Shown: piece by piece, positions 14,655 to 24,166 of the stretch
Layout: each line of letters starts with the position of its first letter
Numbering within the stretch: position 1 is the stretch's first letter
NCBI RefSeq assembly: GCF_900111575.1
Contig: NZ_FOIF01000004.1
Coordinates: forward strand, 1 to 64,000
Length of the DNA stretch: 64,000 nucleotides
Source: Anaerobranca gottschalkii DSM 13577
GTDB lineage: Bacteria > Bacillota > Proteinivoracia > Proteinivoracales > Proteinivoracaceae
Direction of reading: 5' to 3'
Notes under the pieces: generated by a model
Told to the model about the DNA's origin: nothing
The model's input: only the letters and a program-made list of their open reading frames with translations
Databases searched by the model: none
Translations under genes and position numbers: made by a program

Positions 14655-15344
14655 ATGCTCAAATCATTTAAGGGAAACACATTATACAAACTTCCTACCC
14701 TTTTTTTCGGCTTTATTCTTTGCAGTTTAGGAATTACAATGATGTACAAAGGGAGAGATTTAGGTTTAGGGCCATGGGATGTACTACACACCGGTATTAT
14801 GAATTACCTTCCTCTAACCTTCGGTCAAGTCTCACAAATGACGGGATTTATTATTATTCTTATTAGTTCATTGTTAGGGGTAGCTCCAGGTATCGGTACC
14901 GTGTTAAATATGATTTTTATCGGAATATTTATTGACTTTTTCGATAATAGTCCTTTGTTATTTACCCCCCAAACCTTTGTTGGTAAATTGATAATGTTAA
15001 TTCTAGGGGTATGGATTTTAAGTATTGGTATTTATTTTTATCTAAAATGTGGTCTTGGAGCTGGACCTAGAGATGGTTTAATGTTAGGTCTCGTAAAAAA
15101 AACAAATCTTTCCGTTGGCAGAATAAAAACTTTCATGGAAATATCTGTATTGATATTGGGAGCTTTATTAGGTGGTCAAGTGGGAATTGGAACAATCATT
15201 GTAGCCCTAACATTAGGTTATTCTTTACAAATTGTTTTCACTATAGGAAAGTATAATTCAAGGGATATTATTCATAGAACTTTAAAGGATGAATTTTTAT
15301 CTTTATCAAAAATATTTAACCAAAAAGAAAGGAGTTTATTATGA
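14655..15344 (+). CDS. YczE-like integral membrane protein (COG2364)
   Basis: This 229-residue protein has five to six hydrophobic helices. It carries two copies of the family motif: GRDLGLGPWDVLHTGI (about 35-50) in the first half and KCGLGAGPRDGLMLGL (about 132-147) in the second half. The repeat G-L-G-x-x-P-x-D places it in the YczE/YyaS group; the molecular function of that group is not established. Its stop codon overlaps the next ATG (ATGA), so translation is coupled to the selenoprotein gene that follows. That pairing is the main clue to its job, perhaps transport of, or membrane anchoring for, a thiol/selenol reaction. Confidence 0.85.
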   Translation: MLKSFKGNTLYKLPTLFFGFILCSLGITMMYKGRDLGLGPWDVLHTGIMNYLPLTFGQVSQMTGFIIILISSLLGVAPGIGTVLNMIFIGIFIDFFDNSPLLFTPQTFVGKLIMLILGVWILSIGIYFYLKCGLGAGPRDGLMLGLVKKTNLSVGRIKTFMEISVLILGALLGGQVGIGTIIVALTLGYSLQIVFTIGKYNSRDIIHRTLKDEFLSLSKIFNQKERSLL

Positions 15345-15628
15345 AAATTACACTAACTGAAGAAGTGATGGGATATCTAAAAGAGAAAAATAAACAGGTA
15401 ATTACAGTCAATTTGGTAATAGGTGGTTCCTCTTGATGTGGGCAAACTTATAGGTCTGAGGTTCAGACTAAACCCCCAAAAAAACTGGATAATTATTATA
15501 AATATGAAATAGAAGACATAACTGTTTACGTAGATAAAGACTTACCTGTTGATAGAGAAAAAGGTCTTAACATTACTTTAGAAGGTTTTTGGTTATTCAA
15601 AGTTTTAAAGGTAGAAAACAAACTGTAA
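15341..15628 (+). CDS. Small selenoprotein (CC/Se-motif, HesB-like), Sec encoded by in-frame TGA
   Basis: From the ATG at 15341 the frame runs 95 residues to TAA at 15626-15628, interrupted only by TGA at codon 32 (15434-15436). Sequence around it: VIGGSS-[TGA]-CGQTYRSEV. Reading TGA as selenocysteine gives a Sec-Cys pair, the position where relatives carry Cys-Cys. The protein continues normally afterwards with EIEDITVYVDKDLPVD and ITLEGFWLFKVLKVENKL. The N-terminus MKITLTEEVMGYLKEK resembles A-type (HesB/IscA) iron-sulfur carrier proteins. A short stem-loop with a GGU-containing loop sits 18 bases after the TGA, as a bacterial SECIS should. AAAGGAG lies 8 bases before the ATG. A likely redox or metal-binding protein; the partner is the coupled YczE-like membrane protein. 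A plain nonsense mutation is the alternative, but the SECIS and Cys context argue against it. Confidence 0.85.
15454..15468 (+). promoter_or_regulatory. Candidate bacterial SECIS element
   Basis: GTCTGAGGTTCAGAC folds as a perfect 5-bp stem with loop AGGTT, with a G-U pair possible below. The loop G at 15460 is 24 bases after the TGA, inside the spacing accepted for SelB-dependent SECIS elements, and the AGGU loop resembles that of E. coli fdhF. Found by eye; no folding energy was computed. Confidence 0.75.
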
Positions 15629-15653
15629 TGGGAAGGGTTAGACCCTTCCCATT
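15627..15653. terminator. Bidirectional terminator between selenoprotein and glucan synthase genes
   Basis: AATGGGAAGGGT and ACCCTTCCCATT form a perfect 12-bp stem around a 3-base loop. The loop includes the stop codon of the convergent glucan synthase gene (15638-15640). Confidence 0.85.
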
Positions 15654-18600
15654 ATTACTTCTATGTTATGTTCCATTCCATCATCTTGTAAAGTGATAGG
15701 GAAATTTGTCAGGTTACCATCTAAAAATACCTCTTTAACCCCTTTATTATATTTTTCTGGGTTTCTTACCGTAATTAAATATGATGTTTCTCCATAGTTA
15801 TACTTGATGGTATATTCCTGCCAGTCTTTAGGAATACAAGGATCAACCGTCAGTTTATCCCCTGATAACTTAAATCCAATTATATGTTCAAGACCTACTC
15901 TATACATCCATCCAGCAGCACCGGTGTACCAAGTCCAGCCACCTCTACCTATATGGGGTGCTACAGCATATACATCGGCAGCTATCACATAAGGTTCCAC
16001 CTTATATGTGGATGCTTCTATAGGTGTTCTTGAATGATTTATCGGATTAACTAAATTGAACAGTTCCCATGCCTTATCTCCATCTCCCTTTAAAGCATAG
16101 GCTAAAATAACCCAGATTGCTGCATGGGTGTATTGCCCTCCATTTTCTCTAACACCAGGTACATAGCCTTTAATGTATCCAGGCTGTTGATCACTTTTAT
16201 CAAAGGGTGGTGTAAAAAGCTGAATTAAACCTTGATCCCTTTTTATCAAATACTTTTCTACTGAATCCATAGCCATTTGGATTCGCTCGGTATTTTTACC
16301 TCCTCCAGATATTATGGACCAAGTCTGTCCTAAAGAATCAATGATACATTCGGTATTTTGAGAAGAACCTAATGGTTTTCCATTATCATAGAAAGCTCGG
16401 AGATACCACTGACCATCCCATGCATTTTTTTCTATATTTTCCACTATTTCTTCTGCTATTTTTTCATACCTAGCTGCCCTATCACTTTCTCCCATATATT
16501 CTGTTATCCCTTTAAAATCTTGGAGAATTTTATACAAGAACCAGCCTAACCAAACACTTTCCCCTTTACCTTTATTACCAACTGTACTCATGCCATCATT
16601 CCAGTCTCCAGAACCCATCAAAGGGATACCCCTTTCTCCAAATTTAAGGGATCTTTCTATGGCTCTAATACAGTGTTCGTAAACTGAAGCTTTTTCCATA
16701 GAAATTCTGGGGATTCCATACCTTTCATCTTCCCTTCCTAAGGGTTCATCTTCTAAAAAATGAACCTCTTCTTTGAGAATTTCAAAATCCCCTGTCCTCT
16801 TTACGTAATCGGCGGTAACTAATGGCAGCCATAATAAATCATCGGAAAAACGGGTTCTTATCCCTTTATCTCCAGCCCCTGGATGCCACCAGTGTTGAAC
16901 ATCTCCTTCTACAAACTGATGGGCACAATGGAGTAATATTTGCTCTCTAGTAACAGTTGGTAAATTAAATACTAAATTCATCGCATCTTGTAATTGATCT
17001 CTGAATCCATAGGCTCCACCGGACTGATAAAAGGCAGATCTGGCCCAAATTCTACAAGAAAGAGTCTGATAAACTAACCAGCCATTTAACATCAAATCCA
17101 TAGATTGATCGGGGGTTTGGATTTGGATTTTCCTTATTAACCCTTGCCAGAATCTGGTTACTCCTTTTAAGGCATTTTTACACTGGGCCAATGACTTATA
17201 TTTAGTTGCTAAGTCAAGGTACTGTCCATCAACATCATACCCTGTTATAAAAGTCAATTCTGTTTCTGCTAAAGCCTTTAGTTCAATGGTTGTTTGAATA
17301 GCTGCACAGGGTTCCAATCCAGCTCCAACTTTGTTGCTCAACCTTTGATATTTTAAAGCTAATGGATTTGACATATCTCCTGTTAATCCAATAAACTCCC
17401 GGCGATCTCCAGTATAACTATCTATTTTCTCTGATGAGGTTATAAAAGCAACTCCATTGGAGAAATCAATGTTATAAGGATTTTTTACTACTAAACTTTG
17501 GGTTTTCTCACAAAACTCAGTTATTATATAATTCTTAGTAGTTTGTTCACTTACCCCTAGGACTGGTTTTAAGTAATAGGTTATGGTAAGTTTTCTCTTT
17601 TCCCCTGATCCATTTTTTAATTTCAACAAACTAATTTTAACTGAGTCTTTTTCAGGTACGAAAACCGTTAACTCTTGGTTAATGCCATTGCTATTATGGT
17701 TAAAAGTTGTATAACCAATGCCATGACGGACAGTATAACTTTCTTTTTCTCTAACGGGGAGTGGAGTTGGAGTGAAAATTTTTCCTGTTTGGTCATCCCG
17801 GATACAGATAACTTCCTCTGAAGGGTCTGATACCGGATCATTAGACCAAGGAGTGATTTTATTTTCTCTACTGTTTTCTCCCCAAATAAATCCAGAACCA
17901 CTTTCTGATACTAAAAAACCAAATTTTTTATTGGCTATGACGTTTATCCATGGTGCCGGGGTTTGTTTTTCCTCTTTAAGGCGGATTATATATTCTAACC
18001 CATCCTCTGAAAAGCCACCATATCCATTATAAAACTGAGTTCTTAATGGTTCATCTATACTGAGATAGCTGATATTTTGAGGTAAAAACTCCATTTCTTT
18101 TACATCTGGTGGAGTATAGGAAAACTCTATTTGACGGCTTAAAGCCCCTTTATCACCATGAATAATAATCCTGGCTACACTGTACAGTAAAGTTACATCT
18201 TCCTTAGCCATTTGTTTTGCATTCCTAATAAATACACCTCCAGGGGTATCTAGTAAATGCCTACCATGGCTAACAGAGACCATATCATTTAACATCTGTT
18301 GCAATGGTTGTAAGTAACTACTCTCTTCCTCATTTAGTACTACTAAATCCACCTTTAGTCCTTTAGATGTCCAATATTCATGGGCCTTTAGAAGACTTTG
18401 GAAAATAGATGCCTCTTCTGAATTTTTAACTACTAATAGAACAATTGGCAAATCTCCTGAAATCCCATAACTCCACAGGGCGGTTTGGTTTCTATTATTT
18501 TCTTTAATGATTTCTCTATATCTTTCTTTAGCAGGGCTAAGATAAATTAAAGAAGAAATCATATCTTGATAAATCTTCAATTCTTCCTTTTTAATATCCA

Positions 18601-21600
18601 AAAAGGACATTTCAACTTGACTTCTGGTATAGGCAAGATCAAAGCTTCGGATTATTGTATTGAAATCCCGATACTTCTTGGCTAAATCCAAGACTTCATC
18701 TTTACTATCACCAATCCCTGTAATGAATGTAACTTGTACCGAACCTCCAGCGGGAACATGTACCTTTTTCCTTAAACTAAAACAGGGATCTAAAACTATA
18801 CCAGTAGAATCAGTTAATGGGTTTTGATAAGCAATAGCATTTTTAATATTTTTACCTCTGCCAATAAAATTACCTCGCATAGTCTCATATTGTAATCCTC
18901 CCACAGATTGACCATTGACTACTATTGTGTGAAAACCCCATATTTCCCCTTTATGTTCTTCCCTAGGCCGTCTAGAAGCAATAAGGCATTCATATTCAGG
19001 GACCATTTCTGTCCGCAAGAATAAATTACTGAAAGCAGGGTGGGCTAAGTCGGCAAGATGGTTTCCTAAAACTAGTTCCATAAAGCTAGTAACTTCGATG
19101 GCAGCATCTGTTACATTGTGGTTAGAAAGGGTTATTTTCCTAATCTCTACATTATCTTCTGATGATACAGTAACTTCCATTTTAGTCGTTATATTATCAT
19201 CATGGCGATAATATAGAGCTTTATCATTATAAAACTTGACTTTATAACTATCTCCTTCATCCCCTAGTGGTTCATACCCAGCAGACCACAGTTTATCATC
19301 TTTTTTAAAGATGATATATGTTCCATATTTACCTATAAGGGAGTCTTCTCTCCATCTAGTTATATTATTGTCTAAACACTTACTATATCCCCCTCCCCTT
19401 TCATTTAGCATTACTGAGTATCTACCATTGGTTATTATGTGACAGCTAGGTAAGTATGGTGTAATCCCTTGGTACTCCCGGATTAACTCTTCTCCTTTAG
19501 TTACATATGTGGGAAGATAATCTTCAACTTCTTTAAATTCTTTAGTTATAACAGCCCTTACTGGAACCCTTTCTTGTAATAAAGTTTCCCCTGCCCTGAT
19601 CATAGGGTTTTGGTGAAAACGTTTTTGTAGGATATTATCATATAGGAAGTTGTCTAATGCCATAAGGATCATCCCTTGATGATGGGCCATAAAACTTTTA
19701 ACTATTTTTTTATCTTTACCGTGAATTATTGATCTTGCGGGGGTGTAATCAACAGCTTCATATAAACCATATTGACCACCAAGTCCTTCATTTAGTAATT
19801 TTTTTAAATTTTCTATAACCCCTTTAGGGTCAAAGGAAATTGCCAAAATACAAGCATATGGTGAAATAACGGTATCATTGGTCAACCCCCTTTTTAAACC
19901 GAGTTCCGGTATACCAAAGGCTTTGTACTGATAATTCAATGCTAAATCAAAGGTATAGTAACCAGATTCAGATACACCCCAAGGAACCTTCCTTTTCTTA
20001 GCATATTTCTTTTGGGCTAGTATTACCCCTTTGTAGGTCTCATCTAAAAGGGTATCTCTATAATTTTTCAAGAGTAAATTAGGCATAAAATACTCGAACA
20101 TGGTACCGGTCCATGATACTAGGCTCCTAGAACCATCAACTATAGATAATCCCCTACCTAACTTAAACCAGTGTTTCTTAGGTATTTCCCCTTTACTAAT
20201 GGCAAGATAACTGGTAGTTCTAGCTTCTGAAGCCAGTAAATCGTAGTATGAATTAGTCAATCTCTCATCATCGACATTATAGCCAATGGAAAAGAGGTTT
20301 CTTTTAGAATCATAAAGGTAGATAAACTCTGTTTCTTCAATTATAGTTTCTATAGTTGAAAGGAGTTCTTTTACCTTTTCTTCAGAAACAGTTATCTTAT
20401 CCAGCTTTTCTATTATCTTTTCTTTTAATCTAGCTATTTTCTGATTCTCTATTTCTTCATCCTCTATCTTTTGAAGTAACTTTTTGTATAGCCCTTTTAA
20501 TTTGTTAATGGTATTGCTATTATCTAGTTCCCTTAACAATGTTTCTATTTTAGGAAATTCAACATATTCATTTGGTTGATCCTTTAAATAAAATTCTTCT
20601 AGTTCTCCTCTAAATTCTTGGAGCATACTATTATATTTTTTCTGCCAATACCCCTGTTCAGTTGTTCCCTTTAACCCTTCTAAAACCTCATTATATTTAG
20701 TGACACCCAACCCTTTAGTCTTTATATCTGTATTCTCTAACATAAATAGCATTTTACTATCTTCAAAAACTTCTGCCAAAAGGGCAGTATCCCTTAAACC
20801 TAATAACTTGTTGTAACAGAAAATCTCTTCATCACCAAATTCCTCTAAAGCTTCTTTAATAACTATTAAGTTACTAATGAAGTTTCCACTATCAACGGTG
20901 GAAACATAGGCTGGTTTTAGAACTTCAAGGGTGTTAGTGTCATACCAATTATATAGATGCCCATGCCAAGTTTCCAGTTTTTCCACAGTTTTCAAAGTAT
21001 TTTCTAACCTTTGGAGGGTTTCTTTTACAGTTAGGTAACCAAAATCCTTAGCTATTATCACCCCTACTAACATACAACCAATATTGGTAGGAGAAGTTCT
21101 ATTAGCTAAACCTTTAGGAGGATATACCTGATAATTATCTGGAGGAAGATAGTTATTTGTTTCATTAGCGAAATCTTCATAATAGCTCCAGGTTTTCCTA
21201 GCTAATTCCCTTAACAATTCAAAGTCTTCCCCTGACAATCCAGCTTTTTCTTCCCCAAAAGAGATATCCTGACTAATTTTATAAGCTATATATGGGGATA
21301 CCGCCCAAAGAAAGACTATAGGTAAAGCATAAACAATATTTTGTGGAATGAAAAATAACACTCCAAAAATGGTAATTAAAGTAATAATTAACCCCGACTT
21401 CATCCTTACAAAATAACTTTTTAGATCATTTTGCAAACTTCTTTCCTGATCTGCTGCTGTAACCCATTCTAACATATTCTTTTTTGTAACAAAAACTCTG
21501 AATAATGTTCTAGTTATAGCATCTAATAACATATACCCTTGATAAGGTAAAAAACAGAAATTGAGTATAACCTGATACCAAAGGGCTGAAACACCATAAA

Positions 21601-24166
21601 ACTTCCGGACATTTGTTTTACCATTATAACCTTTTTGGCTTTGCCCTACTCGAAAATACTCTATCGTATTTAATAGGGCAGGAAAAAAGGCAATAAAAAG
21701 CCCTATAAATAATAGCAGCCCTTGTCCTTTGTCAACAAAAAGTAAAGTCATGATAAAGAAGATTAACAACTTTACTGGAACTAGACTTCTTCGAAGATTA
21801 TCAAAAATTTTCCATTTAGAAAGGGTAGATAAAGGATTTTTTACCCAATTATTTTCCCTATCCCTTACTTTACTAAAAAGCCAAGGAAGTAGCTGCCAAT
21901 CTCCCCTTACCCAACGATGTAACCGCATAATATATGAACTAAATTTAGCAGGATAGCCATCAATTAACTCTACATCAGTGGCTAACCCTGTTCTTAAGTA
22001 ACATCCTTCCAATAAATCATGGCTTAATACAGAATTCTCAGGAATATTTTTGTGTAATATTTCCCCAAATACCTTAAGATCATATATTCCTTTGCCTGTA
22101 AAAATCCCATGGGAAAACAAGTCCTGATAAATATCAGAACTGGCAGTGGTATAAGGGTCAATACCTCCTTGCCCTCCGTAAACCTTAGAGAAAAAGGTTT
22201 TGTTAGAACTTTCCACTGCTACCCCTATTCTAGGCTGGATAATACCATAACCTTCTTTTACAATATTGTTCTCTCCTATGATAGCTTTGTTTAGTGGATG
22301 AGCTATAATCCCTACAAGTTTTTTTCCGGTAGAAATGGGTAGTTGAGTATCGGCATCTAAAGTTATGACGTATTTTATCTCTTCTTTGGGAATTCCAGTA
22401 ATCACATTGAAAGTAGTGTTATTACTTCCCAATAGGAGATTATTAAATTCTTCAACTGCTCCCCTTTTTCTTTCCCAACCCATCCACTTTCCTTCATTGG
22501 AGCTGTAAACCCTTTTTCTTATATATAGGAAGAATCTATTTTCCCCATATTTTTCATTTAATTGTTTTATTTCTTCCACTGCACAATTAATTATCTCTTG
22601 ATCATTTTCACAGTTTTCTTCTTTAGAATCCTTTAAATCAGCCAAAAGGGCAAAGTAAAAGTTAGGGTCTTTATTTCCTTGATAATGGGTTTCCAATTGT
22701 CTAACCAATTCTTTTACTCTATCTATATTAGGAAGTAGAGTAGGAACAATAATAAATGTGGCATTTTCTCTACCTACCCCTGTTTTAAATTCTAATCTTG
22801 GTAATATTTTAGGATGGTAAATTTTTAACAGGAGATAATTAATTAGATGAACTACTACATCACTAACTGGTATAATTAAACTTAAAGAAAATAGTAAAGA
22901 CAAAATTATGTTATTCCAATAGTAATTGGTAATAAAGAGAAAACACAGGGAGATTCCTAAGGTCAATGAAATAATAGGAGTAATATAGATCCCTAAAGGA
23001 TTAGAAAGGGTTTTTAAGCCCTTAGCTTTTAATACTGAAGTTAATTCTTTAACCCCTTCATCTATAATATAAAAACCAACATGGGCATACTTATCCCTAT
23101 AACCTTCATCCCACTTCCTTTGAGCTAAATCTACTGCAACTTGAGCAATTTTGGTTTCAGATCTATTTAATTTATTTGATAATCTTTCAATCTCTGTTCT
23201 ATAGTAATCTCTAGATTCAAAATCCATTTTTTCGTAAATCTCTAAAGGATCATTCCTCAATATCTTTTCTACGACATTGAGGGATTCAAAAATATCATTC
23301 CAATCTAATGTAGATATGGTATTTAAACTGATGATGGAATTACCGATAGATATTTTTCTAGCAGCTTGTTCTCTATGTTCCTCTATTAATAGCTGTTGGA
23401 TAGATGTGTTAAACTCCGATAGTTTTTTTTCTAAAAAGCTAACTACATCTCCTGTTTCTGTGTCCATCCTCCTCAACTGTCTCAATAAATGCTCTACAAA
23501 GGCTGGACTTACAGAGTCAGCAAACTCCATCTTTTCTTGTAAATACTGGATAATCTTCTCTGGTTCTTCCTTAGCTAGCTCTTCTGCTTTTCTCCACCAT
23601 TTTTGATTTTGAGAAATATCTCGGCAGATAATATTTATGTTTTTGATTAATGCAATCCTTGCCATCAAGGAAATCGACCAAATTTCCCCTATGGATAATA
23701 TCCTTTGGCTTTGATAACCTTTAATAAACTCCATTAAAGTTTCTTCTTCAATTTTCCCATCAGTATGGGATATATAGTCTAATAAAAGGGCGTAAACCCT
23801 CGGATATCCTTTAAAGACACCACTTTTTATTGTATACAACTTTAAAAATCTGTCTTTTAATAAATTTAATCTTACTTCCTTTACTTGTTCTTCAACTTTA
23901 TAAAAATTATCAAGTAACCACTCGGAAGCTGGGCTCATAGGTTTTTTGTTTTGAGCTTCTATACTAAGTTCTTTATATACCTTAACTATTTCACTAAAGG
24001 TCTGATCTAGCTTCTTAATTAAGGGTCTAATGGGTTTAGGTTCTGAGTAAATCTTATGCTGTTTAGCTATTTCTTTAGCGTGATTCTTCAATTCTTCTCC
24101 TGTCAATATAACATCTTTTAATGATTCAATAGTTTGTAATTCAATTTCTTTTTTTGCTAGACTCAT
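15638..24166 (-). CDS. Cyclic beta-1,2-glucan synthase (NdvB/ChvB-like giant membrane enzyme)
   Basis: At 2842 residues this is close to the length of ChvB/NdvB, which polymerise UDP-glucose into cyclic beta-1,2-glucan. Order: N-terminal helical region (1-390); membrane helices (about 395-455); GT84 glycosyltransferase domain (about 465-780) with DADTQLP near 600, SHDLLEGCYLRTG, and the HRWVRGDWQ acceptor-site motif near 750; four or more further helices (about 800-960); a glycoamylase-like domain (about 980-1480); beta-sandwich repeats; and a C-terminal GH94 phosphorylase-like domain with GSGDWNDGMS near 2520, holding the general-acid Asp. All three catalytic modules look intact. In characterised enzymes GH94 sets ring size and the middle domain cyclises. 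In thermophilic Firmicutes the product may be an osmolyte or cell-envelope glucan. It follows the nucleotidyltransferase gene by 28 bases, so the two are one operon. Confidence 0.92.
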   Translation of the reverse strand: MSLAKKEIELQTIESLKDVILTGEELKNHAKEIAKQHKIYSEPKPIRPLIKKLDQTFSEIVKVYKELSIEAQNKKPMSPASEWLLDNFYKVEEQVKEVRLNLLKDRFLKLYTIKSGVFKGYPRVYALLLDYISHTDGKIEEETLMEFIKGYQSQRILSIGEIWSISLMARIALIKNINIICRDISQNQKWWRKAEELAKEEPEKIIQYLQEKMEFADSVSPAFVEHLLRQLRRMDTETGDVVSFLEKKLSEFNTSIQQLLIEEHREQAARKISIGNSIISLNTISTLDWNDIFESLNVVEKILRNDPLEIYEKMDFESRDYYRTEIERLSNKLNRSETKIAQVAVDLAQRKWDEGYRDKYAHVGFYIIDEGVKELTSVLKAKGLKTLSNPLGIYITPIISLTLGISLCFLFITNYYWNNIILSLLFSLSLIIPVSDVVVHLINYLLLKIYHPKILPRLEFKTGVGRENATFIIVPTLLPNIDRVKELVRQLETHYQGNKDPNFYFALLADLKDSKEENCENDQEIINCAVEEIKQLNEKYGENRFFLYIRKRVYSSNEGKWMGWERKRGAVEEFNNLLLGSNNTTFNVITGIPKEEIKYVITLDADTQLPISTGKKLVGIIAHPLNKAIIGENNIVKEGYGIIQPRIGVAVESSNKTFFSKVYGGQGGIDPYTTASSDIYQDLFSHGIFTGKGIYDLKVFGEILHKNIPENSVLSHDLLEGCYLRTGLATDVELIDGYPAKFSSYIMRLHRWVRGDWQLLPWLFSKVRDRENNWVKNPLSTLSKWKIFDNLRRSLVPVKLLIFFIMTLLFVDKGQGLLLFIGLFIAFFPALLNTIEYFRVGQSQKGYNGKTNVRKFYGVSALWYQVILNFCFLPYQGYMLLDAITRTLFRVFVTKKNMLEWVTAADQERSLQNDLKSYFVRMKSGLIITLITIFGVLFFIPQNIVYALPIVFLWAVSPYIAYKISQDISFGEEKAGLSGEDFELLRELARKTWSYYEDFANETNNYLPPDNYQVYPPKGLANRTSPTNIGCMLVGVIIAKDFGYLTVKETLQRLENTLKTVEKLETWHGHLYNWYDTNTLEVLKPAYVSTVDSGNFISNLIVIKEALEEFGDEEIFCYNKLLGLRDTALLAEVFEDSKMLFMLENTDIKTKGLGVTKYNEVLEGLKGTTEQGYWQKKYNSMLQEFRGELEEFYLKDQPNEYVEFPKIETLLRELDNSNTINKLKGLYKKLLQKIEDEEIENQKIARLKEKIIEKLDKITVSEEKVKELLSTIETIIEETEFIYLYDSKRNLFSIGYNVDDERLTNSYYDLLASEARTTSYLAISKGEIPKKHWFKLGRGLSIVDGSRSLVSWTGTMFEYFMPNLLLKNYRDTLLDETYKGVILAQKKYAKKRKVPWGVSESGYYTFDLALNYQYKAFGIPELGLKRGLTNDTVISPYACILAISFDPKGVIENLKKLLNEGLGGQYGLYEAVDYTPARSIIHGKDKKIVKSFMAHHQGMILMALDNFLYDNILQKRFHQNPMIRAGETLLQERVPVRAVITKEFKEVEDYLPTYVTKGEELIREYQGITPYLPSCHIITNGRYSVMLNERGGGYSKCLDNNITRWREDSLIGKYGTYIIFKKDDKLWSAGYEPLGDEGDSYKVKFYNDKALYYRHDDNITTKMEVTVSSEDNVEIRKITLSNHNVTDAAIEVTSFMELVLGNHLADLAHPAFSNLFLRTEMVPEYECLIASRRPREEHKGEIWGFHTIVVNGQSVGGLQYETMRGNFIGRGKNIKNAIAYQNPLTDSTGIVLDPCFSLRKKVHVPAGGSVQVTFITGIGDSKDEVLDLAKKYRDFNTIIRSFDLAYTRSQVEMSFLDIKKEELKIYQDMISSLIYLSPAKERYREIIKENNRNQTALWSYGISGDLPIVLLVVKNSEEASIFQSLLKAHEYWTSKGLKVDLVVLNEEESSYLQPLQQMLNDMVSVSHGRHLLDTPGGVFIRNAKQMAKEDVTLLYSVARIIIHGDKGALSRQIEFSYTPPDVKEMEFLPQNISYLSIDEPLRTQFYNGYGGFSEDGLEYIIRLKEEKQTPAPWINVIANKKFGFLVSESGSGFIWGENSRENKITPWSNDPVSDPSEEVICIRDDQTGKIFTPTPLPVREKESYTVRHGIGYTTFNHNSNGINQELTVFVPEKDSVKISLLKLKNGSGEKRKLTITYYLKPVLGVSEQTTKNYIITEFCEKTQSLVVKNPYNIDFSNGVAFITSSEKIDSYTGDRREFIGLTGDMSNPLALKYQRLSNKVGAGLEPCAAIQTTIELKALAETELTFITGYDVDGQYLDLATKYKSLAQCKNALKGVTRFWQGLIRKIQIQTPDQSMDLMLNGWLVYQTLSCRIWARSAFYQSGGAYGFRDQLQDAMNLVFNLPTVTREQILLHCAHQFVEGDVQHWWHPGAGDKGIRTRFSDDLLWLPLVTADYVKRTGDFEILKEEVHFLEDEPLGREDERYGIPRISMEKASVYEHCIRAIERSLKFGERGIPLMGSGDWNDGMSTVGNKGKGESVWLGWFLYKILQDFKGITEYMGESDRAARYEKIAEEIVENIEKNAWDGQWYLRAFYDNGKPLGSSQNTECIIDSLGQTWSIISGGGKNTERIQMAMDSVEKYLIKRDQGLIQLFTPPFDKSDQQPGYIKGYVPGVRENGGQYTHAAIWVILAYALKGDGDKAWELFNLVNPINHSRTPIEASTYKVEPYVIAADVYAVAPHIGRGGWTWYTGAAGWMYRVGLEHIIGFKLSGDKLTVDPCIPKDWQEYTIKYNYGETSYLITVRNPEKYNKGVKEVFLDGNLTNFPITLQDDGMEHNIEVIMGRV

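Follow-up and report, generated by a model that had tools for sequence, protein, structure and literature searches.

A predicted selenoprotein gene of the CC/Se motif family in Anaerobranca gottschalkii with a predicted IscA/SufA-like fold

Results

The locus and its reading frame

The window, the whole stretch of 64,000 nucleotides that was analyzed (positions 1 to 64,000 of contig NZ_FOIF01000004.1 of Anaerobranca gottschalkii DSM 13577), carries the following features around the gene of interest.

14655..15344, + strand: upstream YczE-like membrane protein gene (NF052291, 156.9 bits, below the cut-off of 205), with an ATGA overlap
15328..15334, + strand: probable ribosome-binding site (AAAGGAG region), read from the sequence, AGGAG about 10 nt 5' of the start
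15341..15628, + strand: predicted CC/Se motif family selenoprotein gene, 95 codons plus TAA (full-length NF041239 match and dN/dS)
15434..15436, + strand: predicted selenocysteine (Sec) UGA codon, residue 32; relatives align TGA or Cys codons here
15437..15439, + strand: Cys33 codon, vicinal partner of Sec32 (UC motif; UC in 15 of 40 Sec-form sequences)
15449..15472, + strand: 24-nt block TATAGGTCTGAGGTTCAGACTAAA, identical in the window and in loci L015 and L010, although silent substitutions outside the block approach saturation (dS about 1)
15453..15469, + strand: predicted bSECIS hairpin, GGTCTGA-GGT-TCAGACT, with a 7-bp stem and a GGU loop (15460-15462) starting 23 nt after the UGA
15626..15654, no strand assigned: inverted repeat of 13 pairs just 3' of the gene, scored on the - strand only (1 found versus 0.9 expected by chance)

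The initial annotation described a 96-codon frame broken only by a TGA at codon 32, directly before a cysteine, and ATGA-coupled to the gene upstream. This description agrees with what we find: the frame encodes 95 residues plus TAA, its only in-frame break is the TGA at 15434-15436, inside GGSS-U-CGQ, and the start overlaps the upstream stop at 15341-15344. Ordinary gene calling would truncate such a Sec-decoding gene at codon 31. The YczE-like gene precedes the selenoprotein gene in the window, in L015 and in L010, and the neighbor in the gene's own genome is a membrane protein gene and not a redox gene. On the 3' side, a 2842-codon open reading frame on the - strand (15638-24166), presumably encoding a protein of the cyclic glucan synthase type, converges on the selenoprotein gene, and this large gene is also located 3' of the family member in L015 and L010. 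The inverted repeat at 15626..15654 is a possible, if weak, candidate for a terminator between these convergent genes.

Family membership

When translated with a residue placed at the TGA, the protein matches the NCBIfam profile NF041239, 'CC/Se motif family (seleno)protein', with 69.6 bits (curated cut-off, 40 bits); residues 1-92 align to profile positions 1-89 of 91, the homology spans the UGA and the score is far above chance. The family name given in the initial annotation, CC/Se motif, is the one that NCBIfam uses. Of the proposal that this is an unlisted selenoprotein gene, the selenoprotein part holds, while the family is already catalogued and has its own NCBIfam model. A 2026 review of prokaryotic selenoproteins includes it as hypothetical, naming Moorella thermoacetica as the organism of the prediction and CxxU as the motif (PMC13188914). 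The gene is a further member of a known, functionally uncharacterized family, and the family is not new.

Members were found at 115 places in 73 of the 300 genomes sampled from the phylum. A single in-frame TGA is present at 80 of these places, two are present at 8, and 27 lack any. In all, 88 of the 115 read through a TGA, and the homologues continue beyond codon 31. The column of codon 32 is occupied by U or C in 24 of 24 members of our alignment A1, as would be expected from the earlier claim that relatives carry Cys at the Sec position, and the single exception in a wider alignment, L025, is a degenerate copy. The partner cysteine is less constant. Relative to Sec, it lies at +1 in 15 of 40 Sec-form sequences, at -3 in 12, at +3 in 5, at -1 in 2 and at +4 in 1, giving motifs of the types UC, CxxU, UxxC, CU and UxxxC; the other 5 have no partner at the tested positions and no Cys near Sec. 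On these aligned sequences the CxxU motif, found in 12 of 40 as against 15 of 40 for UC, varies within NF041239 and so is not family-defining. CxxU is the motif of the example protein in the review and not a requirement of the NF041239 model (PMC13188914); it is absent from the present member, which has UC.

Several other arrangements were seen among the family places. The eight places with two TGAs (in G056, G278, G089, G158, G232, G255 and G125), most of which align to only part of the profile, may be two-Sec paralogues or may reflect overrun of a real stop. One genome holds three members within 4 kb, each with one TGA (L007 and L022; G049:C21:6363-10096), a local selenoprotein gene duplication. 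In another, one Cys form and one Sec form are arranged in tandem, separated by a few bases (L014/L024; G056:C17:28912-29489), and would allow the two to be compared biochemically as a direct pair.

Selection across the UGA

In comparison with the same-genus relative L015, the 31 codons 5' of the UGA gave a dN of 0.11 and a dS of 1.31, and the 60 codons 3' of it gave a dN of 0.09 and a dS of 1.01. With dN/dS at about 0.08-0.09 on either side, purifying selection, as estimated from these sequences, is equal 5' and 3' of the UGA. The UGA itself is conserved in L015 and L010. A true stop at codon 32, leaving a 31-codon reading frame with decay of the sequence beyond it, or a pseudogene, would account for the frame mechanically ending there, but we reject this reading as highly improbable on conservation, given the unchanged dN/dS, the retained UGA in L015 and L010, the phylum-wide alignment of UGA or Cys codons and the presence of Sec machinery.

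Sec machinery

The initial annotation would have failed had the genome lacked sel genes, and all four are present. The selA, selB and selD genes are located on contig C42 and selC, with anticodon UCA, on contig C50; since these contigs share 259 identical overlapping bases, the sel genes very probably form a single locus. The selD gene has an in-frame UGA of its own, and a second IscA/HesB-fold selenoprotein gene of this genome (L075; G000:C18:13003-13242) has an in-frame TGA within MGUGGPQ. Among the 300 sampled genomes, a strong SelA was detected in 62 of the 65 with UGA forms versus 136 of the remaining 235 (p = 7e-10). Among the three UGA-form genomes that lack a strong SelA, one has selB; in G176 and G184 neither SelA nor SelB reaches the thresholds used.

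The genome also contains a tRNA-Sec-like tRNA (G000:C27:2070-2163; L033:1501-1594) that scores 53.3 bits against RF01852, above the cut-off, with the anticodon GCA and a U before CCA. A place on contig C6 shares its anticodon-stem sequence; the true tRNA-Sec is separate. This tRNA could suggest that the UGA is decoded as Cys or Trp, by recoding or by a selC*-type tRNA-Cys, and not as Sec. However, a GCA anticodon reads UGC and UGU and cannot read UGA, which leads us to reject Cys read-through; the only UCA-anticodon tRNA found in the genome is of the SelC type, and the genome has selA and a selD that carries a Sec UGA of its own. Decoding as either amino acid therefore has very little probability.

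The predicted SECIS hairpin

The initial annotation placed a hairpin with an AGGTT loop at SECIS distance, and we recover it with the loop 23 nt after the UGA; AGGTT is the GGT loop with the last A-U pair opened. Published bSECIS criteria are a loop of 3-9 nt, a stem of 4-16 bp, a G in the first two loop positions, a distance of 16-37 nt from the UGA and an MFE of <= -7.5 (PMC13188914). The hairpin falls within all of these, with a 3-nt GGU loop, a 7-bp stem, the distance of 23 nt and a fold energy of -9.9 kcal/mol for the 52 nt 3' of the UGA. Stability by itself was rejected as evidence for a SECIS, as the region 15432-15495 is no more stable than shuffled sequence (z = -0.02). Conservation was more informative: among codons whose residue is conserved in the window, L015 and L010, 8 of 8 in the 24-nt block around the hairpin are identical across the three genomes versus 14 of 28 elsewhere (Fisher p = 0.011). 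Judged on these sequences, it is conservation and not stability that lifts the putative SECIS above chance.

In most other members the loop at this 23-nt offset belongs to a different hairpin, CCUGC-CGUGUAU-GCAGG or a variant of it. Across 26 relatives, its pair cells are 96% standard pairs, and 21 cells have changed on both sides. Slid controls were only 24-39% paired, and the covariation score was reached by 0 of 500 shuffles, a count that relatedness of the sequences can inflate. Eight Cys forms were checked at the 23-nt offset, and none showed such a hairpin. That two hairpins unrelated in sequence occupy an identical offset illustrates how a SECIS constrains the protein sequence.

Predicted fold

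An AlphaFold (AF2) model of the protein has a mean pLDDT of 91.6. A sequence search of the PDB gave no match; the fold search alone did, with SufA/IscA structures at the top (2d2a, 1r94 and 1s98; E of 1e-4 to 1e-3, TM only about 0.5). The model, itself of high confidence, suggests an IscA/SufA-like fold. Sec32-Cys33 is modeled near a hairpin turn between strands 20-31 and 34-42, at what we take to be the position of the first ligand cysteine of IscA. The C-terminal CxC of IscA is found in 0 of 40 Sec-form sequences, most of which hold just one Cys besides Sec. The absence of this motif makes a classical Fe-S scaffold role improbable for the NF041239 protein.

Discussion

Our results indicate that 15341-15628 is almost certainly a selenoprotein gene of the NF041239 family with Sec at codon 32. 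The gene, its Sec codon, the machinery, the hairpin and the fold model are read from the sequence, and we infer from them that insertion takes place in the living cell. SelB, bound to the hairpin that follows the UGA at 15434-15436, would deliver Sec-tRNA(Sec), and Sec would be inserted at residue 32 of a 95-residue protein with a predicted IscA/HesB fold.

The biochemical function is likewise inferred. In the model, Sec32 and Cys33 would sit where two beta-strands are joined by a tight turn, at the position of the first cluster-binding cysteine of IscA. Given that the protein lacks the C-terminal CxC ligands found in IscA, a selenol/thiol pair is the most likely way for this site to work. Such a pair might take part in thiol-disulfide (selenenylsulfide) redox fed by thioredoxin, or might bind a soft metal(loid). 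A role in selenol/thiol redox or soft-metal(loid) binding is the one that we favor, as somewhat probable on present sequence comparisons. A fixed Sec with a moving second Cys fits a thiol-assisted reactive selenol better than a fixed metal site, although this is no proof. As 5 of the 40 Sec forms have no Cys near Sec, a mechanism of the dithiol type cannot be general to the family.

The genes around other members offer leads only, as the counts are small. Some Sec forms (L002, L003, L005, L006 and L009) are located near a thioredoxin, a thioredoxin-thioredoxin-reductase-like fusion or a disulfide oxidoreductase with a rhodanese domain. Three Cys forms (L023, L028 and L030), each in a different genome, adjoin ACR3 arsenite efflux genes, with ArsA in one case and an arsenate-reductase-like gene in another. 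These neighbors would suit a protein that binds or chaperones a soft metalloid (arsenic) through its CC or UC pair. We regard this narrower role as rather doubtful: such neighbors were seen at three of the Cys-form loci examined and at none of the Sec-form loci, two of the three (L028 and L030) score below the family cut-off, and other Cys forms adjoin cstA, phoU or unrelated genes. Less probable still, and in our view unlikely, is an Fe-S cluster scaffold or carrier like IscA/SufA with Sec as one ligand. The predicted fold and the weak, sub-cut-off matches to IscA/HesB families would be in keeping with such a scaffold, but it would have to do without the C-terminal CxC and, in most Sec forms, with a single Cys besides Sec.

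To return to the selenol/thiol pair, one tentative possibility is that NF041239 is an offshoot of the IscA fold in which Fe-S ligation gave way to a Sec/Cys pair whose partner cysteine is mobile, serving thioredoxin-linked redox or the handling of arsenic (a soft metalloid). To our knowledge, neither use of the IscA fold has previously been described. The family is common in the phylum yet functionally unstudied, and the combination of a fixed Sec, a shifting partner Cys and a predicted IscA fold without CxC narrows the functions that can be tested.

Among known systems, IscA/SufA proteins (PF01521) gave the top matches to the predicted fold, but their C-terminal CxC is missing here and the score is 16.9 against a gathering threshold of 26.3. 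The HesB-like TIGR01911 and IscA_HesB_Se NF038090 families would have in common with this protein the fold class and Sec at the position of the first Cys of IscA; however, it scores only 17.4 bits against TIGR01911 (cut-off, 66.35) and 13.7 bits against NF038090 (cut-off, 85). The motif given for HesB-like selenoproteins is UxGP (PMC13188914). The C27 tRNA, with its GCA anticodon, resembles the selC*-type tRNA-Cys that has been described (PMC7609411). Relative to NF041239 at large, where the local sequence is P-A/T-V in most members, the present protein has R-S-E-V, which goes with the GGUCUGA/UCAGACU stem and GGU loop. The NF041239 family itself, for which the review gives the motif CxxU, is the closest known system: the full-length match, Sec/Cys column, size and hairpin offset agree, and the present member differs in having UC.
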